Of a DNA stretch of 64,000 bases, positions 7,124 to 59,638 are shown one piece after another. The stretch lies in NCBI RefSeq assembly GCF_011320095.1, contig NZ_JAANOY010000003.1, positions 62,001 through 126,000 on the forward strand, read 5' to 3'. Both the position numbers and the translations under genes were made by a program. Positions within the stretch are counted from its first letter, which is position 1. Every line of letters starts with the position of its first letter. The notes under the pieces were generated by a model that saw only the letters and a list, made by a program, of their open reading frames with translations, did not search any database and had not been told where the DNA came from. Source of the stretch: Cognatiluteimonas telluris (lineage in GTDB: Bacteria > Pseudomonadota > Gammaproteobacteria > Xanthomonadales > Xanthomonadaceae).

Positions 7124-7138
7124 CGCGTTTGTTCCATT

Positions 7139-7803: not shown

Positions 7804-7855
7804 GCTGCGTCGTGCTCCCGATGGGATCGAAACTCTTGCACGCAAGGATAAGCCA

Positions 7856-44290: not shown

Positions 44291-46729
44291 CTACTGCGCC
44301 GGCAGCAGTCGCAGGGTGTGCAGCGGCTCGCCCGGCAGGAACGCCGTCGGCGCGCCATGCACCCAGGCGGCATGGCCGGCGCCCCAGAAGGGAGAGAGCG
44401 GGTTGTCGCTCTGGCCGCCGGGCATGTGGATGATGCCGTCGGCCTCGTGCCCGGGCGAAACCACCATGCGTTCGGACGCACCGAAATCAGGTGCGGTGAC
44501 GCGCGGCATGTTGCTGTCGCCACGCAGCTGGTCGGGTGGCATGCAGAGCAGTGGTCGCACGAACCCCGGCACTGCGGCGGCCAGCGGATGGCAGATGTTC
44601 GCGGTGTTGCGCTCGCCCCACGTACGTTGCGCCAGGGGGCCGTGCGCGGTGAGCTGGTCGCGCACCTGCTGCGCGGCATCCTCGAACAGCGCATCCCAGC
44701 TGGCGAACCGTCGCGGCAGCAGGTTCGCGGGCCGCTGGCTGGCCAGTGCCCACGCCACGCCTTCGAACTGAGGCAGGTTGGGCAGGATGAAGTTGTCCCC
44801 CAACGTCGCCTGCGCCGGCGCGGTCAGTCCGTCGAGCAGGCGGGCATGTACCGCCAGCCGCCACGCGCGCACGATCCGGTAGCTGGTCGAGCCCGTGCTG
44901 GCATGGCCCTGCCAGGTCGCGGCGGCATCGGACAGCGCGCGTAGCGCCGGCGTCCGCGCACGGGCCGCGTCGTCGCGCAGCAACGTCCACCAGCGCTTGA
45001 GGAAAACCGCACGGTCGTCCAGTTGCACCGCGAGCAGGTCGCGCTCGTCCCATTGCGGTTGCGCCAGCAGGTCGTCGCGGATCTGTTGCGCACGCGCGCC
45101 CAGGGCATATTCCGATCCGCCGATGCGGGCCAGCTCGCTGCCGTCGAGGGTGCGGTTGTTCGCCGTCCACAGGCGCGTGTAGGCGGGCGACTGCCGGGTG
45201 ACACCCGATTCGCCGACCGCCCAGGGCGGACAGGTGGGCGTCACCAGTACCGGGCGTGGCGCGGTGGACTGGCACTTGCCGATCCGCCGTGGCAGCGGGC
45301 CGGCGATGTGCCAGGCGATGTTGCCGCCCGTATCGGCGAGCAGCACGTTCTGCGCCGGAATCGCGGTGGTCCTGAGCGCGGTGAGCGCGGTGCCGACGTC
45401 GCGCGTGGTGGCCAGTTGCAGCAGGCCCAGGTTGACCGCGCCGGGACGCTGCCCGACCCAGCGCAGGGCCAGCGCATTGCCGCGCGGATCCTTCGCCAGC
45501 ACCGGGCCCCAGGCGGTTTCGTTGATGTCCAGGTCCACCGGCGCGGCCCCGGCCACGTCGATGCGCTCGCGATGATGGGTGACCGGCGTGCATGTTTGTC
45601 CCGCCGGTCGTGGACAGGGCGCGACCACAGCCCAGTCGGCGACATCGGCATAGCTGTTGGTGAATCCCCAGGCCACGTGTCCGTTGCTGCCGACGATCAC
45701 CATAGGCAATCCGGGCAGGGTGAATCCGGAGACATCGACCCGCCCGCCCGGGGCGCGGCGATCCGGATAACGCAGGCGTGCGCGGAACCAGATGTTGGGA
45801 ACGCGCAACTGCAGGTGCATGTCATCGGCGACGATGGCCCGGGCGTCGCGCGTCAGTGCACCGGAGACGGCGAAATTATTGCTGCCGATGACGCGGGTGG
45901 GCGGCAGGATGGCAGCCAGTGCGTGCGGATGGGCAGGCACTGGCAGCTGTCGCAGGTCGAGCGTGCCCGGCCCGGGGAGCGAAACTTCACCGCGCGCCGC
46001 GCCCACCAGCGGCGCGTCCCAGAGCGTGCCGTCGCGGTCGAGCAAGGCATACAGCGGCGCCGGCAGTGCCTGCCGCAGCTCCCACATCGCAAGTTCGCGC
46101 TGGTTGCTGGCGTCCTGCAGGTCGAAATACATCGCAATGCCGACCAGTGGCGAGTCCTCGGCCAGCCAGCGGCGCGGCTTGCTGCGCAACAACAGGTACG
46201 GCCACGGCTGCACCTTCAGGCTCGCGAGCCCGGCATTGACGCCGTCGACATACGCATTGAGCACGCCCGAGTCCGCACTGGCGATCGCCGGCAGATGCTC
46301 GCGCACGCGATCGCGCATGCGATGGACGCGATGCCTGCGGTCGGTGTCGACGGCGACCGGGCCGAACAGCTCGGCCAGTTCTCCTGCGGCCGAACGCCGC
46401 ATCAGGTCCATTTCGAAGAACCGCTCCTGCGCATGCACGTAGCCCAGTGCGCGCACCGCATCGGCCTCGCTGCCGGCATCGATGGTGACCACGCCCAGCG
46501 CGTCGCGCTGGATCTTCACCGGCGCCGACAAGCCGGTCAGCAACTCCTCGCCATCGATGGTTGCGAGGCTGCCGCGCAGCAACGCCCACGCGGTCACCGC
46601 CAGCAGTCCAAGCAGCAACAGCAGCGCCAGGGCCACGCGCTTGAGCCATGTCGCCAGTCCGGCGCGCGGCCGCTGCGGCCGGATCGACCTGGGCGTGGAT
46701 TGGCGCGTGTCGTTCCGTCGCAAAGCCAT
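44291..46729 (-). CDS. Penicillin acylase family (S45) Ntn hydrolase
   Basis: An 812-residue precursor with an N-terminal membrane anchor or uncleaved signal (about residues 29-51, VALALLLLLGLLAVTAW). An alpha chain, a spacer and a beta chain that would begin at Ser283 (VIG-SNNFAVSG) follow, the autocatalytic cleavage site of S45 hydrolases. Other family blocks are ALGYVHAQERFFEMDLMRR, GLPMVIVGSNGHVAWGFTNS and GGQSDNPLSP near the end. Substrates of this family include penicillin side chains, acyl-homoserine lactones and other amides; which applies here cannot be told. It is convergent with dapE. Confidence 0.9.
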   Translation of the reverse strand: MALRRNDTRQSTPRSIRPQRPRAGLATWLKRVALALLLLLGLLAVTAWALLRGSLATIDGEELLTGLSAPVKIQRDALGVVTIDAGSEADAVRALGYVHAQERFFEMDLMRRSAAGELAELFGPVAVDTDRRHRVHRMRDRVREHLPAIASADSGVLNAYVDGVNAGLASLKVQPWPYLLLRSKPRRWLAEDSPLVGIAMYFDLQDASNQRELAMWELRQALPAPLYALLDRDGTLWDAPLVGAARGEVSLPGPGTLDLRQLPVPAHPHALAAILPPTRVIGSNNFAVSGALTRDARAIVADDMHLQLRVPNIWFRARLRYPDRRAPGGRVDVSGFTLPGLPMVIVGSNGHVAWGFTNSYADVADWAVVAPCPRPAGQTCTPVTHHRERIDVAGAAPVDLDINETAWGPVLAKDPRGNALALRWVGQRPGAVNLGLLQLATTRDVGTALTALRTTAIPAQNVLLADTGGNIAWHIAGPLPRRIGKCQSTAPRPVLVTPTCPPWAVGESGVTRQSPAYTRLWTANNRTLDGSELARIGGSEYALGARAQQIRDDLLAQPQWDERDLLAVQLDDRAVFLKRWWTLLRDDAARARTPALRALSDAAATWQGHASTGSTSYRIVRAWRLAVHARLLDGLTAPAQATLGDNFILPNLPQFEGVAWALASQRPANLLPRRFASWDALFEDAAQQVRDQLTAHGPLAQRTWGERNTANICHPLAAAVPGFVRPLLCMPPDQLRGDSNMPRVTAPDFGASERMVVSPGHEADGIIHMPGGQSDNPLSPFWGAGHAAWVHGAPTAFLPGEPLHTLRLLPAQ

Positions 46730-46774
46730 CGGTCTTGCAGTCCGGTGTTTTCCCCAACCGCGAGGATAACGGAC

Positions 46775-47431
46775 TCAGCGCCGGCGCAGGCCCCAGGCGC
46801 TGGTGTGCAACGCACTCACGCCTTCGGCGACAAATCCGGGCTGGCTGCCGAGGATGTCCCTGCGCTCGAACAGGTCCAGTGTCCAGTCCGTGCCGAAGCG
46901 CGCGCGGACCTCCGGCGCGTGGACCGAAAACGGCGGGCCGGCTTTTTCACCTTGCGGATACTCCAGCGTGACCAGCAGGCCACGGCAGCCTGCTGGCAGG
47001 TGCCCGTACACGTCGCAGGCGTAGCGGTCGCGCAGCGCCGGCGGCAGCGCAATCAGTGCGGCGCGATCGTAAACGCCGGTGCAGCTGGCGATGAGGCCCG
47101 GCTCCAGCGCGAACACGTCGCCCAGGATGATTTCGATATCCCCGGCGACGTGGTGCAGGCCGCTGGCGGACGCATGTATCCGCGGCTCCAGGCCGTGTTC
47201 GGTGAAAAACTGCTGCACGGCGATCGGCGACAGCTCGACACCCAGCACCCGGTGGCCGCGCGCCGCCAGCCACGGCAGGTCCAACGACTTGCCGGCCAGC
47301 GGCACCAGCACGCGGGCACTGGCCGGGATGCCGGCGGCGTCCCAGTACTGCTCCAGCAGCGGCGTGACCTGCGGCTGGTGGAAGCCGATCCGGCCATCGC
47401 GCCAGCGTTGCTGCCAGAAGTCAGGATCCAT
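46775..47431 (-). CDS. tpm: Thiopurine S-methyltransferase
   Basis: A SAM-dependent methyltransferase of the TPMT family, 218 residues. In bacteria these enzymes methylate thiopurines and inorganic selenium or tellurium species. The N-terminal DFWQQRWRDGRIGFHQPQV is diagnostic. SAM-binding blocks are RVLVPLAGKSLDLPWLAARG and VLGVELSPIAVQQFF, followed by GVYDRAALIALPPALRDRY. It is 45 bases downstream of nothing coding on its own strand; parC lies upstream behind a repeat-filled gap. Confidence 0.95.
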   Translation of the reverse strand: MDPDFWQQRWRDGRIGFHQPQVTPLLEQYWDAAGIPASARVLVPLAGKSLDLPWLAARGHRVLGVELSPIAVQQFFTEHGLEPRIHASASGLHHVAGDIEIILGDVFALEPGLIASCTGVYDRAALIALPPALRDRYACDVYGHLPAGCRGLLVTLEYPQGEKAGPPFSVHAPEVRARFGTDWTLDLFERRDILGSQPGFVAEGVSALHTSAWGLRRR

Positions 47432-47468
47432 GTGTCGTGTGTCCCGGTTTCAATTGAATGTGGATTTC

Positions 47469-47546
47469 GTAGCCCGGGTAGGGCGAAGGCGCACCCGGGA
47501 AGGCAATACGACTAAATCCCCGGGTGCGCTGCGCTTTCCCGGCTAC
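47469..47546. repeat. GTAGCCCGGGTA inverted-repeat element, copy 1
   Basis: A 78-base element. The left arm GTAGCCCGGGTAGGGCGAAG (continuing GCGCACCCGGGAA) is matched by a right arm CCCCGGGTGCGCTGCGCTTT (continuing CCCGGCTAC) in inverse orientation, around a short AT-richer centre. It would form a strong hairpin. A second copy follows 47 bases later. No gene lies in the 258-base parC-tpm gap. Confidence 0.75.
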
Positions 47547-47593
47547 GGGATACGGGCCTGCATGTTTCATCCGGTTCCGGGATGTGTTGATTT

Positions 47594-47670
47594 GTAGCCC
47601 GGGTACGCCGTCGGCGCACCTGGGAATGCATTGCCGCCAAACCCCGGTGCACTGCGCTTACCGCGGCTAC
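47594..47670. repeat. GTAGCCCGGGTA inverted-repeat element, copy 2
   Basis: A 77-base element with left arm GTAGCCCGGGTACGCCGTCG (continuing GCGCACCTGGGAA) and right arm CCCCGGTGCACTGCGCTTAC (continuing CGCGGCTAC). It is in the same orientation and nearly the same length as copy 1, with compensating and non-compensating differences. Confidence 0.75.
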
Positions 47671-47689
47671 GGTTATGTCAGGACCGGCG

Positions 47690-49933
47690 TCATTCGACCG
47701 ACAGGCCATCGACCTTCTGCCACCCCCGCGGCAACAGCCCGCCGCGCGTGGCCCGGCTGCCCACGTACTCGCCCAGGTCCTTGAACGACAGCGACATCGT
47801 GCGTGCGCCCGAGCGCACCTGCAGCGTCGCCCCCGGACCCACCACGGCCACCGCGACCACGCGCTCGGTGCCGAGCTTGGCTTTCGGGATGTCGATGATC
47901 TTGTTGCCCTTGCCGCGGTCCAGTTCCGGCAGTTCCGACACCGGGAACGCGATCAGGTGGCCGGCCGTGGTGACGGCGACGACGCGATCGCTGTCGAGGC
48001 TGGTGATCGCCGCCGGCTGCACCACGCGCGCGCCGGGCGTCAGCGACAGCAGTGCCTTGCCGGCCTTGTTGCGCCCGGTGAGGTTCTCGAAGCGGGTGAC
48101 GAAACCATAGCCGTGCGAACTGGCGATCACGAAGCGCGCATCGTCGTCGCCGGTCGCCAGCGCCTGGAACGAGGCGCCGGGCGCGGGGGCGAAGCGTCCC
48201 GTCAGCGGCTCCCCGTTGCCGCGCGCGCTGGGCAGCGTGTGCGCGGCGGTGGAATAGCTGCGCCCGGTCGAATCCAGGAAGGCCACCTGCTGCGTGCTGC
48301 GCCCGCGCACCGCGGCCAGCAGGCGATCGCCCTCGCGATAGCTCAGTGTCGAGGCGTCCACGTCGTGGCCCTTGGCCGCGCGCACCCAGCCCTTGTCGCT
48401 GACCACGATCGTCATCGGTTCGCTGGGGACCAGTTCGGTTTCGTCCAGCGCCTGGGCCGCGCCACGCGCGACCAGCGGCGAACGGCGTGCGTCGCCGAAC
48501 TTCTTCGCATCGGCCAACAGTTCGTCCTTGACCAGCTTGCGCAGCTTGCCCTTGTTGCCGAGGATCGATTGCAGGCGCTCGCGTTCGGTGGCCAGCTCGT
48601 CCTGCTCGCCGCGGATCTTCATCTCCTCCAGCCGCGCGAGCTGGCGCAGTTTCGTCTCGAGGATGTAGTCGGCCTGGTCGTCGCTGAGCCCGAAGCGCGC
48701 GATCAGCGCCGGCTTGGGTTCGTCCTCGCCGCGGATGATGCGGATGACCTCGTCCAGGTTGAGGAACGCGGTCAGCAGGCCTTCGAGCAGGTGCAGCCGG
48801 CGCTCGACCTTGTCCAGCCGGTGCTGCAGCCGGCGGGTGACGGTGTCGAACCGGAACGCGAGCCACTCGGTCAGCAGCACGCGCAGGTTCTTGACCTGCG
48901 GGCGGCCGTCGGCGCCGATCACGTTCATGTTGACGCGGAAGCTCTTTTCCAGGTCCGTGGTCGCGAACAGGTGCCCCATCAGCTGTTCGGCGGCGACCCG
49001 GCTGGAGCGCGGGATCAGCACGATGCGGGTCGGGTTGGCGTGGTCGGATTCGTCGCGGATGTCTTCCAGCCACGGCAGCTTCTTGGCCCGCATCTGCGCC
49101 GCGATCTGTTCGATCACCTTCGACGGCGACACCTGGTAGGGCAGCGCGGTGACGACGATGTTGGCCGCTTCCCGCATGAACGTGGCCCGCGCGCGCACGC
49201 TGCCGCCGCCGCTTTCGTACATCGCCATGAGGTCGTGCGCGGGGGTGATGATTTCCGCTTCGGTCGGGTAGTCCGGGCCGCGCACGTGCTCGCACAGGTC
49301 GCGCACGCTGGCGTCGGGATCGTCCAGCAGGCGCACGCAGGCGCTGACGATCTCGTTGAGGTTGTGAGGCGGCACGTCGGTGGCCATGCCGACGGCGATG
49401 CCGGTGGTGCCGTTGAGCAGCAGGTGCGGCAGGCGTGCCGGCAGCCACATCGGCTCTTCCAGGGTGCCGTCGAAGTTCGGCGCCCAGTCGACGGTGCCGT
49501 GCGCGAGTTCGCCGAGCAGGACCTCGGCGATCGGCGTCAGCTTGGACTCGGTGTAGCGCATCGCCGCGAACGACTTGGGATCGTCGGAGGAGCCGAAATT
49601 CCCTTGGCCATCGATCAGTGGATAGCGGTAGGAGAACGGCTGCGCCATCAGCACCAGCGCTTCGTAGCAGGCGCTGTCGCCGTGCGGATGGAACTTGCCG
49701 ATGACGTCGCCGACGGTGCGCGCGGATTTCTTCGGCTTGGCGCCGGCGCCGAGCCCGAGCTCGCTCATCGCGTAGATGATCCGGCGCTGCACCGGCTTGA
49801 GGCCGTCGCCGAGGAAGGGCAGGGCGCGGTCGAGCACCACGTACATCGAGTAGTCGAGATACGCGCGCTCGGCGTATTCGCGCAGCGGGATCTGTTCGAA
49901 GCCGTGGAAGGCCGGTCGTACGGTGTCGTTCAT
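47690..49933 (-). CDS. parC: DNA topoisomerase IV subunit A
   Basis: The DNA-cleaving subunit of topoisomerase IV, which decatenates sister chromosomes with ParE. It is 747 residues. The catalytic tyrosine is in [10 protein letters not shown]. The quinolone-resistance region reads [11 protein letters not shown], i.e. the susceptible-type Ser and Glu at the positions equivalent to E. coli 80 and 84. The breakage-reunion domain is followed by a C-terminal beta-propeller (repeats such as [15 protein letters not shown]). It lacks the gyrase-specific QRRGGKG box, supporting ParC over GyrA. rnk lies upstream on the same strand. Confidence 0.97.
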
Positions 49934-49965
49934 GCAGGGTCCGGTGGAGGCGTCGGGACGGCGGA

Positions 49966-50391
49966 TCAGCGATGCAGTTCGCCGGCCGCTTCAGGTTGGT
50001 GCCCGATCGATAGCACCTGCAGGCGGGCGTTGCGTCCGCCCGGCATCGGCCACTGGATCGCATCGCCCACGCGCAGCCCGAGCAGCGCACTGCCGACCGG
50101 GGCCAAAATCGAGACGGCGTCGGGGCGTTGCCCGGCGTCGCGCGGATAGACCAGGGTGATGTCGCGCTCCTCGCCCGATTCCTCGTCGCGGAAGCGCGCG
50201 GTGGAATTCATGGTGATGACGTCGGCCGGCATGTCGCGCGGCTCGACGATGCTGGCGCGCGCCAGTTCGGCCGCCAGTTCGCGGGTGTCCACGCCCGGCT
50301 GGCTTTCGAGCAGCGCTTCCAGCCGGTCGCAATCCAGGCGGGAGAGCAGCAGCGGCGGTCGTTCCGTGGGTGCGGGAGGCGGATTTTCCAT
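49966..50391 (-). CDS. rnk: Rnk, nucleoside diphosphate kinase regulator (GreA/GreB C-domain family)
   Basis: A 141-residue protein with a short N-terminal coiled-coil ([18 protein letters not shown]) and a GreA/GreB-type C-terminal domain. Signatures are [30 protein letters not shown] and [20 protein letters not shown]. Rnk binds RNA polymerase in competition with Gre factors and affects Ndk levels. The full Gre coiled-coil with its acidic tip is absent, so this is Rnk and not GreB. GGAGATCGACC precedes the ATG. It ends 32 bases before parC. Confidence 0.93.
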
Positions 50392-50543
50392 GGTCGATCT
50401 CCAAAAGCTGGCGCCGGCGATGCGCTGGGCGCGACCGCCGCGTCGGGACGTGGGTTGCGGCCGAAGTTAGCCGCGAACGCCGGAGAGGGCAACACCGCCC
50501 GCGCCCGACGGATCGGCCCGGACCGCTTCGTTCAATCGCCTCG

Positions 50544-50572
50544 TTGACAAGCCCATCGCCGCACCGCAACAT
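50544..50572 (+). promoter_or_regulatory. Promoter for tRNA-Leu
   Basis: A perfect -35 box TTGACA (50544-50549) is followed after 17 bases by CAACAT (50567-50572), a moderate -10. Transcription would start near 50579, about eight bases before the mature tRNA. Confidence 0.6.
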
Positions 50573-50587
50573 ACGCGCCCTGCACCT

Positions 50588-50674
50588 GCCCGGGTGGCGG
50601 AATTGGTAGACGCACTAGCTTCAGGTGCTAGCGGGGGCAACTTCGTGGAGGTTCGAGTCCTCTCCCGGGCACCA
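50588..50674 (+). tRNA. tRNA-Leu, anticodon CAG
   Basis: An 87-base class II tRNA. The acceptor arm GCCCGGG pairs with CCCGGGC, followed by discriminator A and an encoded CCA. The D-loop has GGTAGACGC. The anticodon stem CTAGC/GCTAG encloses the loop TTCAGGT with anticodon CAG, which reads the CUG codon, dominant in this GC-rich genome. A long variable arm (CGGGGGCAACTTCGTG) and T-arm GAGGTTCGAGTCCTC are present. It is a single-gene unit with its own promoter and terminator. Confidence 0.98.
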
Positions 50675-50684
50675 GGTCATGAGA

Positions 50685-50711
50685 CCCCTGAGCAATCAGG
50701 GGTTTTTTTTT
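50685..50711 (+). terminator. Rho-independent terminator after tRNA-Leu
   Basis: The stem CCCCTGA/TCAGGGG (50685-50691 and 50696-50702), a GCAA tetraloop and nine consecutive T residues form a textbook intrinsic terminator ten bases beyond the tRNA 3' end. Confidence 0.95.
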
Positions 50712-50838
50712 GCCCGCCCGCTGCGGCGCCCGGGTCATTTGTATGCCGCCGATGCGTGAATCCGGGCATGCATGCATGCGCTAGGCTGCGGGCTTTCACC
50801 CTCCAGTCACCTGTGCGACCGCCGGGGAAGGCCACGCG

Positions 50839-52737
50839 ATGTCGAAGTCCACCGTCCTGCTGCTTGCTGCCATCGGCCTGGCGGCGATCGCGCCGCGGGC
50901 GCGCGCCGACGCGGCCAGCGACCAGGCGTCGCTGCTCAACCTGAGCCTGGAGCAGTTGGGCGACGTCAAGGTCACCGCGACCTCGCGGCGCGCGACGCCG
51001 CTGAGCGACACGCCGGCATCGGTGTACGTGATCCAGGGCGACGACCTGCGCGCGCTGGGCATCCGCACCCTGCCCGAGGCATTGCGGCTGGCGCCCAACC
51101 TGCAGGTCGCCCAGATCAACAGCGCCGGCTACGCGGTGTCCGCGCGCGGCATGAAGACCTCGCTGAGCGACAAGCTGCTGGTGATGGTCGATGGGCGCCC
51201 GATCTACACCCCGCTGTTCGCGGGCGTGCTGTGGGACCAGCAGAGGGTGCTGGTCGAAGACATCGAGCGGATCGAAGTCGTCAGCGGCCCCGGCGCCGCC
51301 GCGTGGGGCGCCAACGCCGTCAACGGCGTGATCAACATCGTCATGCGTCCTGCGCGCGATACCTCCGGCGGCTTCGCCAAGGGCTGGGCTGCCGCCGATG
51401 GCCACGGCGTGGCGGCTGCGCAGACGATCGCGGCGGGTAGCGATGGTGCGATCCGGTTGTATGCCGCGCGCGACCAGCACGATGGGTCCGAAACCGCCGA
51501 TGGCATGGCCATTCCCGACGACTGGACGCAGGACCAGGGCGGCTTCCGCGGCAACTGGCGCAAGGGCGCCGATACCTACTCGTTGGAAGGCGATGCCTTC
51601 ACCGCGCGCTCGGCGCCGCGCGGCTTCGGTCCCGTCGAAGTGCGGGGCCACAACGTGGTCGGGCGCTGGGCGCGCGAACTGTCCCCCGACGACCAGTGGT
51701 CGCTGCAGGCGTATTACGACTATGTCCATCGCCTGGACCCGGCCGTGATCGACGACCGCATGGCGATCGCCGACGTGGAATTCGTGCAGGACAAGCGCGC
51801 CGGCGCGCATCAGTTCACCTGGGGACTGGGTTACCGGCAGGCGCGCGACGACAGCCGGCCCGGCGCATTGGCGAAACTGGTGCCGGACGATCGCACGCTG
51901 CGCTGGGCCAATGTCTTCGTCCAGGACCAGTTCGCGATCAGTGGGCGATTGACGGCGAACTTCGGCCTGCGCCTGGACAGCAATTCCTATACGGGCGTCG
52001 AGGTGCTGCCGACCGCGCGCTTCTCCTGGCGGCAGGACGGCGGCGCGCTAATATGGGGTGCGTTGTCGCGCGCGGTGCGTTCGCCGGCGCGGTTCGACCG
52101 CGACTTCTTCTTTCCGGCGAACGAGCCTTATTTCATCCGCGGCGGCCCGGACTTCCAGTCTGAAGTATCGAATGTCGCCGAAGTCGGCTACCGGGCGCAG
52201 CCCACCGACTGGATGTCGTTCTCGCTGACCGCCTTCCACCACTGGCACAACCGGTTGCGCGGCGGCACACCGGCGCCGCAGGGCGGCGTCTACGTGGCCA
52301 ATACGGTGCAGGGCCGCACCTGGGGCGCCGAAGGCTGGGCGACGTTGCGGATGCCGGGGCAGTGGGAAATCGCGGCTGGCTTCCTGGAGTTGCGCGAGCA
52401 TTTCGAGTTGATGGACGGCGGCGGCGACTCGCCGGCGATCGCCGACCAGGGCAACGATCCGGAACATCAATACCTGCTGCGCGCCACCCGCCGGATCGGC
52501 ACGCGACAACAGCTGTCCGCCTTTGCCCGTTACGTCAGCGCGCTGCCGTCGCCGGCGATACCGGGCTATGTCCAGCTCGATGCGCGCTGGAGTTTCAGCC
52601 CCACGCCGACGACGGAGATCGGGGTCGGCGCGCGCAACCTGCTCGACCATCGCCATGCCGAGTTGCAGCCGTCCGACGGCCTGCAGCCATCGGATTTCGG
52701 GCGCGTGGCCTACGTGGACATCACGGTCGGCTGGTGA
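50839..52737 (+). CDS. TonB-dependent outer-membrane receptor
   Basis: A 632-residue receptor with a signal peptide (MSKSTVLLLAAIGLAAIAP...ARA) and a TonB plug domain (about 45-160). The plug contains LSLEQLGDVKVTATSRR, DKLLVMVDGRPIYTPLF and ERIEVVSGPGAAAWGANAVN. A 22-strand-type barrel ends in VAYVDITVGW. This short plug/barrel form, beginning LSLEqL..v.VT..S, is the subtype commonly found beside YfiR-family genes. The ligand is unknown; no siderophore or B12 genes are nearby. The ATG at 50839 has GGGGAAGG upstream. The next gene starts four bases after its stop, so the three genes 50839-55242 form one operon. Confidence 0.93.
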   Translation: MSKSTVLLLAAIGLAAIAPRARADAASDQASLLNLSLEQLGDVKVTATSRRATPLSDTPASVYVIQGDDLRALGIRTLPEALRLAPNLQVAQINSAGYAVSARGMKTSLSDKLLVMVDGRPIYTPLFAGVLWDQQRVLVEDIERIEVVSGPGAAAWGANAVNGVINIVMRPARDTSGGFAKGWAAADGHGVAAAQTIAAGSDGAIRLYAARDQHDGSETADGMAIPDDWTQDQGGFRGNWRKGADTYSLEGDAFTARSAPRGFGPVEVRGHNVVGRWARELSPDDQWSLQAYYDYVHRLDPAVIDDRMAIADVEFVQDKRAGAHQFTWGLGYRQARDDSRPGALAKLVPDDRTLRWANVFVQDQFAISGRLTANFGLRLDSNSYTGVEVLPTARFSWRQDGGALIWGALSRAVRSPARFDRDFFFPANEPYFIRGGPDFQSEVSNVAEVGYRAQPTDWMSFSLTAFHHWHNRLRGGTPAPQGGVYVANTVQGRTWGAEGWATLRMPGQWEIAAGFLELREHFELMDGGGDSPAIADQGNDPEHQYLLRATRRIGTRQQLSAFARYVSALPSPAIPGYVQLDARWSFSPTPTTEIGVGARNLLDHRHAELQPSDGLQPSDFGRVAYVDITVGW

Positions 52738-52741
52738 GCGC

Positions 52742-53380
52742 ATGAGCGGCCGCATGAGCCCGCGCACGGCACCGACCGGTGTCACGGCCGCCATGCGCCA
52801 GTGGGCGTCGTGGCTGTTGTGCGCGTGCATGCTTGCGGCGCTCCCCGGCGGCGGTGCGCAGGCGCTGGATGCCGAAAGCATCTACGAAGCCTACGTCCTG
52901 AATTTCGTCCGCTACAGTCGCTGGCCCGATAGCGACAGCGGCAACGGCGACTACGTGATCGCTGTCATCGGACCGTCCGCCATCGCCGCCGACCTGCGGC
53001 GGCTGGCCGAACGTAACGGACCGGTGCAGGGGCATGCGCTGCGGGTGCGGGCGATCGCGTTGAATACGCTCGCACCCGTGCGCAGGGAAGCGGTGCGCAC
53101 GCTGCAGGCGACGCTGGACGACGCGCGCGTGGTATTCGTCGCACCCAGCCACCGTAGCTGGAACGGCGCCGTCATCGCCGCCACCGCGGGCAAGCCGGTG
53201 CTGACCGTCGGCATCGGCGGCGACTTCGTGCGCCAGGGCGGAATGCTGGCGCTGTTCGATCACCAGGGACGGGTCAACTTCTGCGCCAACGAAGCCGCGA
53301 TCAAGCAGTCCTCGGTCGATGTCAGCGCGCGCGTCATGGTCCTCGCGCGGACCGCGCCAACCTCACTGGACGAGGAGTGA
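52742..53380 (+). CDS. YfiR-family (DUF4154) periplasmic protein
   Basis: A 212-residue secreted protein. After a leader with a signal peptide (MRQWASWLLCACMLAALPGG region, residues 18-40) it has the family start ESIYEAYVLNFVRYSRWPD, then YVIAVIGPSAIAADLRRLAE, ARVVFVAPSH, TVGIGGDFVRQGGMLALF and RVNFCANEAAIKQSSVDVSA. In Pseudomonas aeruginosa, YfiR is a periplasmic repressor of the CHASE8 diguanylate cyclase YfiN. Several starts are possible: ATG 52742, 52754 or 52793, the last giving a cleaner signal peptide. Its stop overlaps a GTG of the kinase gene. Confidence 0.9.
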   Translation: MSGRMSPRTAPTGVTAAMRQWASWLLCACMLAALPGGGAQALDAESIYEAYVLNFVRYSRWPDSDSGNGDYVIAVIGPSAIAADLRRLAERNGPVQGHALRVRAIALNTLAPVRREAVRTLQATLDDARVVFVAPSHRSWNGAVIAATAGKPVLTVGIGGDFVRQGGMLALFDHQGRVNFCANEAAIKQSSVDVSARVMVLARTAPTSLDEE

Positions 53381-53382
53381 AC

Positions 53383-55242
53383 ATGCGCAACCCGCTGCAC
53401 CGCCTGGGCACGGTCGGCGCCAAGATCGTCTGGCTGGTGGCGCTGATCAGTGGCACGGCCGCGTTGGCGGTGTCGGTGGCCGCCGGCATCCGCGGCTACA
53501 CCACCTACCGGCAGTTGCTGATCGAATCGATCACCGCCCAGTCGCTGATCGTGGCCTCCAACGCGAGCGCGCCGTTGTCCTTCGGCGACAGCGAGATGGC
53601 CGGCAGCGCGTTGTCGGCCTTGAAGGTGGTGCCCGATGTCGACAACGCGCGCCTGGTCGACATGCATGGGCAGGTGCTGGCGAGCTTCACGGCGCCCGGT
53701 GCGCCGCGGCCTTCGGCAAAACTGTATCCACCGGGCCAGTGGCGGGTGGGCCGCGGCTTCGTGCTGGTGGTGCCGGTGCGCGACATGGCCGGCGCACATG
53801 GCCGCCTGCAGGTCGGATTCAACGACCGCCGGCTGGCGTCGCGCGCGTTGATGTTGGCCGTGCAGACCGGCGTGCTGTCGCTGGGCGGCGTGCTGCTGGC
53901 GGTCGTGCTCGCGCGCGGATTGCGGCGGGTGGTGACCACGCCGGTGCTGGAACTCGAACGCGTCAGCCGGCGCGTGCGCGACAGCGGCGACTACAGCCTG
54001 CGTGCGCACCGCATCAGCAGCGACGAACTGGGCAACCTCACCGACGCCTTCAACGAAATGCTCGAGCGCATCCAGGGCAATCGCCAGGCGTTGCTGGAAG
54101 CGCACCGGCAGGCGGAGGAATCCAGCCGGCTGAAGGACGAGTTCGTCGCCACCGTGTCGCACGAACTGCGCACGCCGCTGTCGCCGATCCTGGCGTGGAT
54201 CCAGATCCTGCGCCTGCCGCGCGGCGCGGAGGAACTCTCCAGGGGCCTGGAAGTGATGGAGCGCAACGGCAGGATCCTGGCGCGCATCATCGAGGACCTG
54301 CTGGACATGAGCCGGATCGTGTCCGGCTCGCTGCGCCTGGACGTGCATGCGGTCGACATCAATGCGGTGATCCGGGCGGCCGAGGAAACGCTGGCCCATG
54401 CCGCCGCCAGCCGGCAGGTGTCGCTGAACGTGAAGCTCGCCTCGCCGCCACCGCCGTTGCGCGGCGACCCGGCGCGCCTGCAGCAGGTGGTGTGGAACCT
54501 GTTGTCCAACGCAATCAAGTTTTCGCCCCCCGGCAGCGAAGTCAGCGTGCGCACGGTGCACGCCGGGCAGCAGCTGGACATCATCGTGGAGGACCAGGGC
54601 GCGGGCATGGATCCGGCGTTCCTGCCGTACGCCTTCGACCGGTTCCGGCAGGAGGACGGTTCGATCACGCGCGCCCATGGCGGCCTGGGGCTCGGCCTGG
54701 CGGTGGTCCGGCAGCTGGTGGAGCTGCACGGAGGCACCGTGCATGCCGAAAGCCGGGGTCGAGACCAGGGCACGCGGTTCGTGGTGTCGCTGCCGATCGC
54801 CGTCGAGTCGCGCCGGACGCCGCGCATTGCCGCGCCGCCGGAGGCGACCCCGGCCGCGGCGCTATCCGGCCTGTGGGTGCTGGTGGTCGAAGACCACGAC
54901 GACATGCGCGCGGTGATCCGCAACATCCTGGAATCGGCCGGCGCCATCGTGGCCGAAGCCGGCAACGCGCGCGACGCCTTCGACCGGCTTGGCGCCGGCC
55001 GCACCGACGTGCTGGTCAGCGACATCGGCCTGCCCGACCTCGACGGCTACGATCTCCTGCGGCGCGTGCGCGCAACCCAGGCCGGTGCCCACCTGTCCGC
55101 GATCGCGCTGACGGCCTACGCGCGTCCCGAGGAGCAGCGCCGGGCACTCGACGCCGGTTACCAGATCCACCTGGCCAAGCCGGTGGAACCGGACACGCTG
55201 GTGGCGGCGGTCGCCAGCGCCGCGGGCATGACGCCCGCCTGA
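53383..55242 (+). CDS. CHASE8-like hybrid sensor histidine kinase/response regulator
   Basis: A 619-residue inner-membrane kinase. A membrane helix at about 13-36 is followed by a periplasmic domain (about 37-157) with the CHASE8-like pattern IVASNASAPLSFGD and LVDMHGQVLASF. A second helix lies at about 159-181, then HAMP, HisKA (FVATVSHELRTPLSPI, phospho-His260), an HATPase (NLLSNAIKFSP, GLGLGLAVVRQLVELHGG) and a C-terminal receiver (VVEDHDDM, phospho-Asp547 in DVLVSDIGLPDLDG, Lys in HLAKPVE). The ATG at 53383 has GAGGAG five bases upstream; a GTG at 53377 overlaps the YfiR stop. No separate response regulator follows, so the output path is unknown. Confidence 0.93.
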   Translation: MRNPLHRLGTVGAKIVWLVALISGTAALAVSVAAGIRGYTTYRQLLIESITAQSLIVASNASAPLSFGDSEMAGSALSALKVVPDVDNARLVDMHGQVLASFTAPGAPRPSAKLYPPGQWRVGRGFVLVVPVRDMAGAHGRLQVGFNDRRLASRALMLAVQTGVLSLGGVLLAVVLARGLRRVVTTPVLELERVSRRVRDSGDYSLRAHRISSDELGNLTDAFNEMLERIQGNRQALLEAHRQAEESSRLKDEFVATVSHELRTPLSPILAWIQILRLPRGAEELSRGLEVMERNGRILARIIEDLLDMSRIVSGSLRLDVHAVDINAVIRAAEETLAHAAASRQVSLNVKLASPPPPLRGDPARLQQVVWNLLSNAIKFSPPGSEVSVRTVHAGQQLDIIVEDQGAGMDPAFLPYAFDRFRQEDGSITRAHGGLGLGLAVVRQLVELHGGTVHAESRGRDQGTRFVVSLPIAVESRRTPRIAAPPEATPAAALSGLWVLVVEDHDDMRAVIRNILESAGAIVAEAGNARDAFDRLGAGRTDVLVSDIGLPDLDGYDLLRRVRATQAGAHLSAIALTAYARPEEQRRALDAGYQIHLAKPVEPDTLVAAVASAAGMTPA

Positions 55243-55297
55243 GGCCGTGACGGGAGCCGCGGCTTCATGCAACATCCAGCGCGGGAACGGGGCACCT

Positions 55298-55573
55298 GTG
55301 CGGATTGAAGCCAAGGGGGCGGCGGTGTTCGGTAGCGAGCGTCGACAACAATCCGAGCGGGAGAAGGCGGTCGCGCTGCGCCGTGGACTGACCGCGGCGC
55401 AGCTGGACGCGCTGGTGACGCTGGAAGCCTTCGGCTGGCGGCTGGCCTTCGTGCGCAGGCCACTGTTCCGCGATCCGATCCCGGTGCTGTTCCACGCTGG
55501 CCAGAACCGCCATGTCGTGCTCCAAGCCGATGGACACATCGATGCCGAGCCCGACCTGCACATCCGTTGCTGA
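55298..55573 (+). CDS. Small hypothetical protein
   Basis: A 91-residue protein that I do not recognise. It is soluble, with a charged helix (SEREKAVALRRGLTAAQLDA), then ALVTLEAFGWRLAFVRRPLF and RDPIPVLFHAGQNRHVVLQADG, ending IDAEPDLHIRC. The second half looks like a compact beta-rich unit. No ATG fits. I used the GTG at 55298; a GTG at 55247 is the alternative. It lies between the kinase and rnr on the same strand. Confidence 0.6.
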   Translation: MRIEAKGAAVFGSERRQQSEREKAVALRRGLTAAQLDALVTLEAFGWRLAFVRRPLFRDPIPVLFHAGQNRHVVLQADGHIDAEPDLHIRC

Positions 55574-55670
55574 CGCCGGCGCCGCCTGCCCACATCGCTG
55601 ACCGGGCCATCGCGCGACAGGACCTGCCATCGCGACGGGCCCGCCGCGGGCGCCGTGTACCATCGTCGCG

Positions 55671-58178
55671 ATGACCAAACCCCCCAGCAAGCGCAGCGGC
55701 GGTCGTGGCCGCGGCAAATCCCCCGGTGGCGATGCCCCGGCACCCCGGGCCAGGAAGAGCGGCGGCGATGCCCCGGCGGCGCGATCGCGCAAGACCAGCG
55801 ACGCCCCCGCGCGACCCGGCTGGATGCCCGACCCCGGACTGGCACGCGCCATGGGCGGCGCAGGCGCCAGGTCGGCGGCACCCGGGCGCGCGGCGGCGAC
55901 GCCCGATAGCGGCACGCCGTCGCCGGACCTGCGCGATCCGCACGCCGAGCGCGAAGCCGCCCGTTACGAACAGCCGATCGCCAGCAGGCAGATGATTCTG
56001 CAACTGCTGGCGGCGTCCGATGGGCCGATGGATGCCGAGGCGCTGGCCGGGAAGCTCGGCCTGGCCGCGCCCGATCGTTTCGATGCGCTGAACAAGCGCC
56101 TGGGCGCGATGCTGCGCGACGGCCAGCTGCTGCAGAACCGCCGCGGCGGCTATGCCCCGGCCGCGCGCATGGACCTGGTTCCGGGCGTGGTGATCGCCAA
56201 TCCCGATGGCTTCGGATTCCTGCGCCCGGATGCGGGAGGCGGAGACGACCTGTTCCTGCCGCCGTTCGAGATGCGCAAGGCGATGCATGGCGACCGCGTC
56301 CTCGGCAGCGTCACCGGCGTGGATCGCCGCGGCCGCCGCGAAGGCGCCATCGTCGAGGTGCTGGAGCGTCGCGTCACCCGCCTGATCGGGCGTTTCACCC
56401 TCGAGGCAGGCATCAGCTACGTGGTGCCGGACGACAAGCGCATCCAGCGCAACATCATGATCCCGCCGGACGCGCGGCTCGAAGCACAGGCCGGGCAACT
56501 GGTGGTGTGCGAGATCGTGCAGCCGCCCGACGCCCGTCGGCCGCCGATCGGACGCGTGCTGGCCGTGCTCGGCGATCGGCTCACCGCGTCGCTGGCGGTC
56601 GAAGCGGCGATCCATGGCCACGAAATCCCGCACGAGTTCCCGCCCGAAGTGCTGGCGCAGGCCGCGGCGGTCCCGGTGGACGTCGATCCCGCGGCCGCCG
56701 CCGCGCGCGTCGACCTGCGCGCGCTGCCACTGGTGACGATCGACGGCGAGGACGCGAAGGACTTCGACGACGCGGTGTACTGCGAGCCCAACCGCGACGG
56801 CTTCCGCCTGGTGGTCGCCATCGCCGACGTTTCGCACTACGTGCAGCCGGGCACGCCGCTGGACGAGGAAGCGACCCGGCGCGCCACGTCGGTGTACTTC
56901 CCGGGCTTCGTGGTGCCGATGCTGCCGGAGACGCTGTCCAACGGCATCTGCTCGCTCAAGCCGAAGGTGGACCGGTTGTGTTTCGTCTGCGACATGCAGG
57001 TCGACCGCAACGGCATCGTCGGGTCCGCGAAGTTCTACGAAGCGGTGATGTACTCCCATGCGCGCCTGACCTACACCCAGGTCTGGAATGCCGTCGGAGA
57101 GGGCGTTCCGGACGAGGATCGCGACCAAGCGCTGGTGTACGTCGGATCGCTGCTGCCGCAGGTGCAGCGCCTGCACCAGCTCTATCGCGTGCTCGACAAG
57201 GCGCGCGCCAAGCGCGGCGCGATCGAGTTCGAGACGTCCGAGGTGCGCTTCGTGCTCGGCCCGCAGGGCGAGGTCACGCAGGCCGGAATGATCCAGCGCA
57301 ACGACGCGCACAAGCTGATCGAGGAATGCATGATCGCGGCCAACGTGCAGGCGGCCGAATTCCTGCTCGGTTCGCATGTGCCTGCTCCGTACCGCGACCA
57401 CGACAAGCCGCCGGAAGCCAAGTACGCCGACCTCGTCGAATTCCTCAAGGAGTTCAAGCTGCGCCTGCCGCCCTGGGGCAAGGTGCAGCCGCGCGATTTC
57501 CGCCAGTTGCTCGAGACCATCCGCGACCGCCCCGACGCGGCGCTGCTGGAGTCCGTGGTGCTGCGCAGCCAGAGCCTGGCCGTGTACGCGCCGGACAACA
57601 TCGGCCACTTCGGGCTGGCGCTGTCGGCGTACGCGCATTTCACCTCGCCGATCCGGCGCTATCCCGACCTGCTGGTGCATCGCGCGATCAAGCACGCGCT
57701 TGCCGGCGGCCGGCCGGACACTTACCAGTACTCGCCGCATGCGATGGCGGCGCTGTCGCTGCAATGTTCCGAGCGCTCGCGCCGCGCGGACGAAGCGCAG
57801 CGCGAAGTCGACGAGCGCTATCGCGCCGCATGGATGGAGCAGCACGTGGGTGGCGAGTTCCGCGGCACGATCAGCGGCGTCACCAGCTTCGGCCTGTTCA
57901 TCGAGCTGGACGAATCCAAGGTCAACGGCCTGGTGCACGTCACCCAGTTACCGAAGGACTTCTACCACTTCGACCCGATCCGCAAGACGCTTACCGGCGA
58001 GCGCCGCGGGCGCGAGTATCGCCTCGGTGATCGCGTGGAGATCGTCGTGCTCAAGGCCAGCGTGGAGGATCGGCGGATCGATTTCCGGTTGGTGGAGGAA
58101 CGCGACGACGCCGCGGGCGGCCTTCCCCCGCCGCCCCCGCGTGGACAGCCGGCCAAGCGCAGGAAGGCAAAGTATTGA
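55671..58178 (+). CDS. rnr: Ribonuclease R
   Basis: A 3'-5' exoribonuclease of the RNB family that degrades structured RNA and takes part in RNA quality control and cold or stationary-phase adaptation. It is 835 residues. A basic low-complexity N-terminus (1-100, with duplicated GGDAPA blocks) is followed by a winged-helix part, cold-shock domains, the RNB catalytic domain (VTIDGEDAKDFDDAVYCE with the Asp cluster), an S1 domain (GTISGVTSFGLFIELDESKV) and a Lys/Arg tail. The E. coli pairing rnr-rlmB is conserved here. Confidence 0.97.
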   Translation: MTKPPSKRSGGRGRGKSPGGDAPAPRARKSGGDAPAARSRKTSDAPARPGWMPDPGLARAMGGAGARSAAPGRAAATPDSGTPSPDLRDPHAEREAARYEQPIASRQMILQLLAASDGPMDAEALAGKLGLAAPDRFDALNKRLGAMLRDGQLLQNRRGGYAPAARMDLVPGVVIANPDGFGFLRPDAGGGDDLFLPPFEMRKAMHGDRVLGSVTGVDRRGRREGAIVEVLERRVTRLIGRFTLEAGISYVVPDDKRIQRNIMIPPDARLEAQAGQLVVCEIVQPPDARRPPIGRVLAVLGDRLTASLAVEAAIHGHEIPHEFPPEVLAQAAAVPVDVDPAAAAARVDLRALPLVTIDGEDAKDFDDAVYCEPNRDGFRLVVAIADVSHYVQPGTPLDEEATRRATSVYFPGFVVPMLPETLSNGICSLKPKVDRLCFVCDMQVDRNGIVGSAKFYEAVMYSHARLTYTQVWNAVGEGVPDEDRDQALVYVGSLLPQVQRLHQLYRVLDKARAKRGAIEFETSEVRFVLGPQGEVTQAGMIQRNDAHKLIEECMIAANVQAAEFLLGSHVPAPYRDHDKPPEAKYADLVEFLKEFKLRLPPWGKVQPRDFRQLLETIRDRPDAALLESVVLRSQSLAVYAPDNIGHFGLALSAYAHFTSPIRRYPDLLVHRAIKHALAGGRPDTYQYSPHAMAALSLQCSERSRRADEAQREVDERYRAAWMEQHVGGEFRGTISGVTSFGLFIELDESKVNGLVHVTQLPKDFYHFDPIRKTLTGERRGREYRLGDRVEIVVLKASVEDRRIDFRLVEERDDAAGGLPPPPPRGQPAKRRKAKY

Positions 58179-58498
58179 CGCCGTCGGCAGGCGCACCTGG
58201 TAGAGCGGCTGCGGCCGCGCACTCCCGGCACGGCTCCGGCAACGCCAGCGCTCGCGGTTGAAGCCGCTTCCACCGAACAGCTGCCATGGCGCGCACGGAC
58301 GTAGCCCGGCTCAGCGCAGCGCACCCGGGATCGCCGATGGAAGGCCATCGGGCGGCCCTGGCCAACCAGCCGCACCGGGCACCGCTGCCCCGGCCGGGTG
58401 TGGCCTTCGGCCTTGCCCGGACAGCAGCGACGCCAATGGCGCCTGCAGACACGATCGATCATTCGCGCAACGACAGCCCAACCCGGCACACTACGCAC
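58179..58498. other. Repeat-rich gap between rnr and rlmB
   Basis: No gene is supported in this 320-base gap. It holds a GCTCGCGGTTGAAGCCGCTT element (58250-58269) of the GGAGCGGCTTCAGCCGCGA type, and a GTAGCCCGGCTCAGCGCAGC repeat arm (58301-58320, continuing GCACCCGGGA). A GGGCGGCC/GGCCGGG-rich stretch near 58350-58425 may fold back on itself. The rlmB reading frame stays open upstream to 58286, but that part is repeat DNA. Confidence 0.6.
58301..58330. repeat. GTAGCCCGG repeat arm upstream of rlmB
   Basis: GTAGCCCGGCTCAGCGCAGC followed by GCACCCGGGA matches the left arm of the elements at 47469 and 47594. It is a solitary arm. Confidence 0.55.
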
Positions 58499-59245
58499 AT
58501 GAGCAAAGACAGCCAGTGGATCGCCGGCATCAACGCCGTGGCTTCGGCCATCGAGCACGACGCCGACAACGTGCGCGAGGTGCTGCTCGAGGCCGGCGCG
58601 AAGAACCCGCGCATCGTCGAGATCGAAGGCAACGCCCGGCGCGTCGGCATCGAGGTCCGTCGTGTCCCGCAGCAGGCGCTCGATGGCGTCGCCGGCGGCC
58701 TGCGCCACCAGGGCGCGGTCGCGCGCTACGCCGCCGTGAAGACTTGGGACGAAGGCGAATTGCAGGGGCTGGTGGAGGCAGCCGCGGGCCGTGCGCTGGT
58801 GCTGGTGCTCGACGGCGTGCAGGATCCACACAACCTCGGCGCCTGCCTGCGCAGCGCCGCGGCCGCGGGCGTGACCGCGGTGGTGATCCCCAAGGACAAG
58901 GCGGTGCAGGTGAATGCCACCGTGCGCAAGACGTCCGCGGGCGCCGCCGACAGCATCCCGGTGATCCGCGCGACCAACCTCGCGCGCTGCATGCGCGACC
59001 TGCAGCAGATGGGCGTCTGGATCTACGGGCTGGCGGGCGAGGCAACGGCATCGCTTTACGCCATCGACCTGCGCGGCAATGTCGCGCTCGTGCTCGGCGG
59101 CGAAGCCGACGGCCTGCGCCGGCTGACGCGCGAGCATTGCGACCAGCTGGTGAGGATCCCGATGCCCGGGCAGACCGAGAGCCTCAACGTCTCGGTGGCG
59201 ACGGGTGTGACGCTGTTCGAAGCGGTGCGGCAACGCCAGGGCTGA
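58499..59245 (+). CDS. rlmB: 23S rRNA (guanosine-2'-O)-methyltransferase RlmB
   Basis: A SPOUT-class enzyme that methylates the ribose of G2251 in 23S rRNA. It is 248 residues from the ATG at 58499 (E. coli 243). An N-terminal substrate-binding domain starts at WIAGINAVASAI. The three SpoU motifs are QDPHNLGACLRSAAAAG, VALVLGGEADGLRRL and IPMPGQTESLNVSVATG. It lies downstream of rnr, as in E. coli. Confidence 0.96.
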   Translation: MSKDSQWIAGINAVASAIEHDADNVREVLLEAGAKNPRIVEIEGNARRVGIEVRRVPQQALDGVAGGLRHQGAVARYAAVKTWDEGELQGLVEAAAGRALVLVLDGVQDPHNLGACLRSAAAAGVTAVVIPKDKAVQVNATVRKTSAGAADSIPVIRATNLARCMRDLQQMGVWIYGLAGEATASLYAIDLRGNVALVLGGEADGLRRLTREHCDQLVRIPMPGQTESLNVSVATGVTLFEAVRQRQG

Positions 59246-59258
59246 CAGGAGCGGCACG

Positions 59259-59522
59259 ATGACGCTGCAACTGGCGTGGTACGACTGGATCGGGCTCGTG
59301 GGCACCCTGATGGTGCTGGTCGCCTTCTTCCTGCTGCAGGCCGGCCGCGTCGTCGGCACCGGGATCGTCTACCAGTTGCTGAACCTGTTCGGCGCCGCCG
59401 GCGTGCTGGTGTCGCTGCTGGGCAGCTTCAATCCGGCGGTGTTCCTGCTGGAGCTGACGTGGGTGCTCATCAGCGGCTACGGCATCGCGAGGACGTTGCG
59501 GGCGCGCGGCCGCACGCCGTAG
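59259..59522 (+). CDS. Small CBU_0592-like membrane protein
   Basis: An 87-residue protein with three hydrophobic helices: WIGLVGTLMVLVAFFLLQAG, then IVYQLLNLFGAAGVLVSLLG and PAVFLLELTWVLISGYGIAR. The DWIGLVGT start and the FNPAVFLLELTW block match the pattern of small membrane proteins annotated CBU_0592-like. Function is unknown. CAGGAG lies upstream of the ATG, 13 bases after the rlmB stop, so the two are probably cotranscribed. Confidence 0.8.
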   Translation: MTLQLAWYDWIGLVGTLMVLVAFFLLQAGRVVGTGIVYQLLNLFGAAGVLVSLLGSFNPAVFLLELTWVLISGYGIARTLRARGRTP

Positions 59523-59552
59523 CCGCGGCACCCTTCGCGGCGTGCCGCCGCT

Positions 59553-59626
59553 GGCAGGAGCGGCTTCAGCCGCGAGCTCCTGCCAGCTTGCATGCCTTGA
59601 AACCAGCTCGCGGCTGAAGCCGCTCC
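59553..59626. repeat. Inverted pair of GGAGCGGCTTCAGCCGCGA repeats
   Basis: The copy CAGGAGCGGCTTCAGCCGCG (59554-59573, continuing AGCT) and its inverted partner AGCTCGCGGCTGAAGCCGCT (59605-59624, continuing CC) flank a 27-base spacer. Each copy is itself palindromic. This is a paired REP element of the kind abundant in Pseudomonas, Stenotrophomonas and Lysobacter. It lies between convergent genes (the small membrane protein and rnt) and probably also works as a terminator. Confidence 0.8.
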
Positions 59627-59638
59627 AACGCAAGGAAC

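Follow-up and report, generated by a model that had tools for sequence, protein, structure and literature searches.

A divergent, orphan receptor-YfiR-kinase cassette of the Yfi class in Cognatiluteimonas telluris

A stretch of 64,000 nt from Cognatiluteimonas telluris (GCF_011320095.1, contig NZ_JAANOY010000003.1, positions 62,001-126,000; hereafter the window) was analyzed for a three-gene cassette, i.e., a TonB-dependent receptor, a YfiR-family periplasmic protein, and a hybrid histidine kinase with a CHASE8 domain. The cassette belongs, as a divergent and orphan copy, to a widespread class of Yfi systems for which curated models exist. It is probably an envelope signalling line of the receptor-linked kind, in which input through the receptor replaces input through YfiB. 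The trio has already been modelled by NCBIfam, and the replacement of the Yfi cyclase by a kinase was reported in 2012. The strongest new results are that the receptor and YfiB exclude each other at YfiR loci, and that one phenylalanine of CHASE8 tracks with the presence of YfiR.

The three genes were recognized as open frames and by Pfam and NCBIfam search (Table 1). They follow one another on the plus strand with a gap of four bases between the receptor and YfiR genes and a four-base GTGA overlap between the YfiR and kinase genes, and the compact trio described in the first-pass annotation was thus borne out. By reading, two starts are uncertain: the YfiR gene may begin at Met18 (52793), where its signal peptide would look more usual, and the kinase gene at the ATG at 53383. 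With these alternative starts, the tight gene spacing would weaken.

The receptor showed plug (69.7 bits) and barrel (80.4 bits) matches, both over the Pfam cut-offs, and passed the NCBIfam model NF053590 of the TOL_0244 family (692.7 bits, cut-off 645). Its N-terminus reads VKVTATSRR, which we take to be TonB-box-like, and was similar in type across 66 receptors. At E up to 1, Pfam gave plug and barrel families and nothing else, with no N-terminal signalling (STN) or transducer domain reported. The second protein matched DUF4154, i.e., YfiR/HmsC-like proteins, at 85.2 bits (cut-off 24.9), but stayed below the cut-off of NF053591 (72.1 vs. 125 bits). Its solved relatives were Pseudomonas aeruginosa YfiR chains, with a best E of 8e-5. 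As it lacks the two Cys pairs of Pseudomonas YfiR (see below), the protein is taken as a DUF4154 member and is not classed as an orthologue of that YfiR.

In the third protein, a CHASE8-like periplasmic part and the domain order HisKA-HATPase-REC had been read from the letters, and Pfam confirmed both. CHASE8 was matched at 46.1 bits against a cut-off of 27, with residues 51-114 covering model positions 8-71 of 102. HAMP, HisKA, HATPase_c, and Response_reg (receiver, REC) matches each lay above their Pfam cut-offs, and no Hpt domain was reported. HisKA, HATPase_c, and REC were found with their catalytic residues (motifs by reading), as in a hybrid histidine kinase. On the NCBIfam model NF053592, the protein reached 131.9 bits, below the cut-off of 194. 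The predicted structure of residues 1-185 (7 sequences, pLDDT 75.7) was composed of a transmembrane helix, helices, five strands, and a second transmembrane helix. Its neighbours among solved structures were extracytoplasmic PAS/Cache domains, including WalK, DcuS, and CitA, with Z of 10.6-13.1. By this model, the periplasmic domain is predicted to be of PAS/Cache-type fold, the PDB comparison showing the fold only. CHASE8 has been placed in the CACHE-like clan (PMC8846402, in part).

The link between YfiR and the kinase was examined with our own profiles for each part, which were built iteratively from the window and a second cassette of the same genome as seeds and used for the locus, phenylalanine, and co-variation analyses. 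In P. aeruginosa, YfiR was proposed to bind the AAVVF stretch on the PAS domain of YfiN, from which the Phe protrudes (PMC3375315, in part). In our alignment, this Phe was present in every CHASE8 protein beside YfiR, i.e., 115/115 kinases, 20/20 GGDEF-EAL, and 13/13 GGDEF proteins. When four cut ones were added, it was found in 152/152 YfiR-linked domains against 8/24 unlinked ones (p 4e-17, uncorrected for relatedness). The 24 controls were taken from 28 unlinked matches over the cut-off in the class sample, and the share was 8/22 after removal of the poorly aligning L295 and L296. The Asp two residues past the Phe was similar in both groups (148/152 linked, 22/24 unlinked). Unlinked domains without the Phe scored 127-140 bits on our profile, where linked ones span 126-179 bits (L116-L121), so divergence is not enough to explain the loss. 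In the window kinase, the residue is F69, and it is also invariant in alignment A1.

Distance co-variation pointed to the same pair of parts. The partial r between YfiR and CHASE8 was 0.48 (95% interval 0.32-0.62, n=48), and that between YfiR and the kinase core was 0.06 (n=48), though CHASE8 and the core are one polypeptide. In a larger set (n=94), from which short domains and YfiRs more than 80% identical had been removed, the YfiR-CHASE8 value was 0.45, and 0/500 permutations were as high. YfiR and kinase were also found fused in eight single chains (L055 at 6374-9094, L260-L265, and L268), with YfiR towards the N-terminus and the kinase C-terminal. Five of these were checked in Pfam; DUF4154 and HATPase_c were found in all, HisKA in four, and a CHASE8 match in none. 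Judged from sequence comparison, the YfiR-kinase link is well supported.

The outer-membrane partner of YfiR was compared over 194 distinct YfiR loci. These came from four genome samples that overlap, from the named loci, and from an Escherichia coli control, in which our profiles find YfiR, DgcN, and YfiB. From 70 class-wide YfiR places, 60 and the two own ones were taken, one lay inside another stretch, and seven were left out; part of the YfiR places in the phylum and order samples was taken in. L118, the same locus as L087, and identical YfiR sequences were dropped before counting. E. coli YfiB served as the seed of the YfiB profile, which initially matched ten further loci or nearby genes. 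This profile superseded an unvalidated crude regular expression for YfiB, which gave no match.

A receptor lay directly upstream of YfiR in 105/194 loci (effector a kinase in 75, GGDEF-EAL in 11, cut in 4, and no CHASE8 seen in 15), never with a GGDEF-only effector. A YfiB-like lipoprotein was near YfiR in 14 loci, E. coli included, and the effector was GGDEF-only in all of them. The two partners were found together in none of the 194. A GGDEF-only effector thus occurred in 14/14 YfiB loci vs. 0/86 receptor loci (p 2e-17, uncorrected for relatedness); in an earlier count of 176 loci, made before longer stretches were added, a single receptor locus (L190, on a short stretch) had GGDEF alone, and it is not listed among the 194. 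Elsewhere, the receptor was divergent (8 loci) or downstream of YfiR (8 loci). Neither receptor nor YfiB was found in 59 loci, which include 38 kinase loci, 12 of them with less than 2.2 kb upstream. In this sample, there are two kinds of outer-membrane partner, and they are mutually exclusive. Positions 46001-60000 of the window gave no match to the YfiB profile. The earlier suggestion that the receptor stands in the place of YfiB was therefore supported, and the exclusivity suggests a receptor that fills the YfiB role instead of being a bystander. The first-pass annotation had the cyclase replaced by a kinase. This kinase is no exotic replacement; it was the commonest effector in the sample (118/154 loci with a readable CHASE8 effector), so the picture of an unusual rewiring was too strong, and kinase outputs were already reported in 2012 (PMC3375315, in part). 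Other gene orders were seen in L100 (3080-7376) and L111 (4387-8479), where the receptor gene comes after YfiR and a CHASE8-GGDEF gene precedes or follows. In L267, the YfiR frame carried a GGDEF-like motif.

The co-occurrence counts in 274 Gammaproteobacteria genomes (the class sample) were made with Pfam and NCBIfam, independent of our profiles. YfiR (DUF4154) was patchy, i.e., found in 39/274 genomes of the class sample, 17/119 of the family, and 94/398 of the phylum. At most four receptor candidates were scored per genome in the 274, with matches listed to E 1e-60. Among them, 25/31 receptors above 400 bits on the TOL_0244 model had a same-strand YfiR within 3 kb (24 downstream, 1 upstream), and a CHASE8 match was also near 19/31, vs. 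0/14 weaker receptors listed with YfiR or CHASE8 nearby. CHASE8 over the cut-off lay within 3 kb of 47/70 class-wide YfiR matches. In the family sample, 18 YfiR places were found. The receptor was directly upstream in 13, divergent in 3, and not seen in 2, and a CHASE8 protein was downstream in all 18, i.e., 16 kinases and 2 GGDEF-EAL proteins. The genes thus mostly lie together in relatives, in line with the first-pass annotation. The own genome had exactly two DUF4154 and two CHASE8 matches (E at most 0.001), paired at both places, so the association is beyond chance. The YfiR-CHASE8 pairing is general.

The second pair belongs to the second, canonical cassette (L003 3335-9927, contig C34), which is composed of receptor, YfiR, CHASE8-kinase, and then a REC-EAL gene. 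All three of its proteins pass the cut-offs of NF053590, NF053591, and NF053592, and its kinase carries both REC and Hpt. The REC-EAL gene overlaps by 14 bases if its start is taken as ATG (4549). Its EAL match was 234.6 bits and its best NCBIfam match was PvrR, below the cut-off of that model; it is a predicted phosphodiesterase of cyclic di-GMP (c-di-GMP). Where at least 5.5 kb downstream of kinase loci could be read (n=84), a separate same-strand EAL frame was found in 24 and a fused EAL in 3. Among 58 EAL frames in 1.9 Mb of partly overlapping stretches (some doubles), 25 lay in CHASE8 proteins, 25 were REC-EAL on the YfiR strand, and 8 were others. Thus, c-di-GMP enzymes are favoured where a partner is visible, but most loci, the window included, show none. 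The output had been left open. This still holds for the window copy, which has no Hpt and no adjoining regulator gene, but c-di-GMP enzymes are indicated as one output by the second cassette and by a minority of relatives. The own genome had 8 Hpt matches (7 over the cut-off), all within long open frames. Those that could be read seemed to belong to hybrid kinases or to proteins of the CheA/ChpA types, and a stand-alone Hpt may still be among the rest. It is unlikely that the window type relies on the REC-EAL of the second cassette, since five window-type relatives (L082, L083, L085, L086, and L087) have a single genomic DUF4154 match. An NtrC-like gene downstream in L241 was considered as a regulator, but it looks like an ordinary ntrC and was not counted.

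For the window cassette, it is reasonable to consider a signalling line of the following form. YfiR would dock on the distal face of the kinase CHASE8 around F69, as proposed for Pseudomonas YfiN, and the docked YfiR would hold the kinase in one state. Both steps are well supported, and docking is suggested by the contact Phe, the co-variation with CHASE8, and the fusions. The outer-membrane receptor would supply the input in place of YfiB, either because a ligand admitted to the periplasm binds YfiR or because the receptor, once loaded with ligand, sequesters YfiR. When YfiR is lost from CHASE8, the change would be passed via the second transmembrane helix and HAMP to HisKA. HisKA may then phosphorylate a response regulator encoded elsewhere, the fused REC acting as a brake, or may relay via the Hpt of another kinase. 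By analogy with the second cassette and the minority of relatives, a c-di-GMP enzyme would be the likeliest end point. Parts of the published genetics and structures of P. aeruginosa YfiBNR support this line (PMC3375315, PMC4655355, PMC4887326).

Several observations weigh against it. The partial r between YfiR and the receptor was 0.12 (-0.07 to 0.33), and 45/500 permutations were as high, so the relay from receptor to YfiR claimed earlier did not show significant co-variation once the others were controlled. Receptor input to YfiR is plausible but indirect; gene order and YfiB exclusivity argue for it and co-variation does not. The receptor is not obligatory, because none was within scan reach in 26 kinase loci whose upstream sequence is at least 2.2 kb long. 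Of the class-wide YfiR matches, 18/70 had neither receptor nor CHASE8 nearby. Pseudomonas YfiR is described as having two conserved Cys pairs; the domain of the window YfiR has a single Cys, so neither pair is possible there. Residue coupling between YfiR and CHASE8 was weak (152 pairs); the mean of the top 20 beats 20/20 partial shuffles, but the best pair does not, and this direct-coupling analysis is too shallow to name contacts and only suggestive. On the output side, a same-strand EAL gene was absent from 57 of the 84 kinase loci whose downstream sequence reaches at least 5.5 kb. No REC-EAL was found next to the window kinase or next to the kinases most closely related to it, and the five window-type loci named above are orphans too.

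Some of these points would suit a receptor that is only a co-expressed transporter, with YfiR and CHASE8 sensing periplasmic cargo or envelope state and the receptor gene being cargo or a target of the same regulon. The non-significant YfiR-receptor co-variation, the kinase loci lacking a receptor, and the absence of a reported transducer domain would all be expected. A YfiR that binds ligand itself is also conceivable, because the pocket of P. aeruginosa YfiR used by YfiB F57 can also take up vitamin B6 or L-Trp, if weakly (Kd tens of millimolar; PMC4887326, in part). However, the receptor directly upstream in more than half of the loci and never with a YfiB-like protein, and a CHASE8-receptor partial r of 0.27 that only 1/500 permutations reached, speak for more than transport, and we regard this explanation as rather unlikely.

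Another explanation concerns the sign of the YfiR effect, which is not fixed by sequence. YfiR may be a co-activator or a ligand-binding subunit of the kinase instead of a repressor, so that loaded YfiR switches the kinase on. The fusions suit this, because sequestration of YfiR away from the kinase is impossible in a single chain. Nevertheless, P. aeruginosa YfiR represses YfiN, substitutions in AAVVF activate YfiN (PMC3375315, in part), and the same Phe is kept in the window kinase. Co-activation is accordingly a doubtful alternative to the repressor-type line. We consider it improbable that a mobile cassette left the window copy behind as a decaying orphan without working output: the copy has no adjoining regulator or Hpt, a patchy distribution in its genus, neighbours unmatched in ten relatives (both described below), and YfiR and kinase scores under the curated cut-offs, but its three frames are open, its H, N, G, and D motifs read as intact, and the same orphan architecture recurs in five family genomes (the five loci above) and, save for the NtrC-like gene downstream, in L241, at a kinase identity of 39-53% where the alignment spans most of the length, which argues for maintenance.

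The features of the cassette and its flanks are given in Table 1. Five neighbour proteins of the window had no match in the cassette stretches of ten relatives, so the cassette sits elsewhere in these relatives. A kinase relative (E at most 1e-90) was found in 3/9 genomes of the genus, the own one included, and the other two showed 45-47% identity. Its behaviour is that of an accessory unit which can be transferred and whose three genes stay together. Directly after the kinase, a possible gene of 108 aa lies at 55247-55573, with no NCBIfam match at E 0.001. No promoter-like site was found at the window cassette. tRNA or tmRNA genes were often near window-type cassettes, i.e., in the window (tRNA-Leu) and in 3/6 other window-type stretches scanned. 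These were tRNA-Val twice (L082 1415-1489 and L083 6411-6485) and tmRNA once (L086 5551-5906), at about 700 bases; the scan of the L087, L085, and L241 stretches gave none. No direct repeat joining the tRNA-Leu to the far side of the window cassette was found. Among YfiRs more widely, a Cys pair seemingly equivalent, by position, to Cys71-Cys110 of P. aeruginosa is widespread but absent from the window-type clade and some others, and within YfiR these two positions seem to be coupled more strongly than any others.

Table 1. Coordinates of the cassette, its domains, and its flanking features in the window.
Feature	Position	Strand	Evidence
tRNA-Leu, upstream flank of cassette	50588-50674		
TonB-dependent receptor, TOL_0244 family (P0001)	50839-52737	+	Open frame, Pfam, NCBIfam
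Receptor plug	~51001-51330	+	Pfam
Receptor barrel	~51520-52641	+	Pfam
YfiR/HmsC-like periplasmic protein (P0002)	52742-53380	+	Open frame, Pfam, NCBIfam
DUF4154 domain	52886-53350	+	Pfam
CHASE8-HAMP-HisKA-HATPase-REC hybrid kinase (P0003), no Hpt reported	53377-55242	+	Open frame, Pfam, NCBIfam
CHASE8 match, kinase residues 51-114, within predicted PAS/Cache-like periplasmic domain (model residues ~38-157)	53527-53718	+	Pfam, predicted structure
Codon of kinase F69, equivalent of the AAVVF Phe of YfiN, thought to be the YfiR-binding site	53581-53583	+	Alignment
HAMP	53920-54075	+	Pfam
HisKA phospho-acceptor domain, SHELRTP box intact	54133-54324	+	Pfam; motif by reading
HATPase_c	54463-54798	+	Pfam
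Receiver (REC), phospho-acceptor Asp in VSDIGLPD	54877-55212	+	Pfam; motif by reading
RNase R-like frame, downstream flank of cassette	55671-58178		By reading

TonB-dependent receptors are numerous, and many are of unknown cargo. If the signalling line is true, a curated receptor family senses rather than, or besides, imports. A neighbouring YfiR and CHASE8 effector would then be a reporter, and ligands could be screened via a kinase or c-di-GMP read-out. The Phe offers a one-residue handle on the YfiR contact. The gain for the window itself is modest, as the copy is divergent and orphan. More broadly, and with less confidence than we place in the window cassette, receptor-linked Yfi cassettes may possibly form a distinct, common mode of cross-envelope signalling for TonB-dependent receptors without a transducer domain. 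Receptor occupancy would control YfiR, and YfiR would control any CHASE8 effector, i.e., kinase or GGDEF-EAL, as an alternative to YfiB and to the sigma route of FecA/FecR, and the line would frequently end in c-di-GMP.

Among known systems, YfiBNR (TpbB) of P. aeruginosa and YfiR-DgcN-YfiB of E. coli share with the cassette the YfiR family, a CHASE8/PAS domain with the invariant Phe, and adjacent genes. In the window, however, the effector is a hybrid kinase (HisKA-HATPase-REC) instead of GGDEF, the outer-membrane partner is a TonB-dependent receptor instead of YfiB, and YfiR is without the conserved Cys pairs. VieSA and RocSAR/PvrSR lead from a hybrid kinase to REC-EAL. Their likeness is to the second cassette, i.e., a kinase with REC and Hpt and then REC-EAL, whereas the Yfi cassettes differ in the input via YfiR and receptor, and the window copy has no adjoining REC-EAL. 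In FecA/FecR/FecI, too, a signal crosses two membranes from a TonB-dependent receptor, but the window receptor has no reported N-terminal signalling domain, its periplasmic partner is YfiR, and the output is a kinase.

Malone et al. (2012) described divergent Yfi operons in which the GGDEF of YfiN was replaced by GGDEF-EAL, HPT, or sensor kinases and YfiB was mostly missing; the kinase outputs are shared with the window, and a TonB-dependent receptor is unmentioned in that section (PMC3375315). The word TonB is absent from the main text of that paper, Table S4 aside. Among titles and the starts of abstracts in the open-licence literature, no paper describing the receptor-YfiR-kinase cassette and no experimental study of it was recognised. 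The closest match is the curated trio of TOL_0244 receptor, TOL_0243 YfiR-like protein, and YfiR-associated histidine kinase (NF053590, NF053591, and NF053592). The window YfiR and kinase stay below the cut-offs of these models, and the copy is without the Hpt and the REC-EAL partner of the second cassette, but it is the same trio, and its receptor is over the cut-off.

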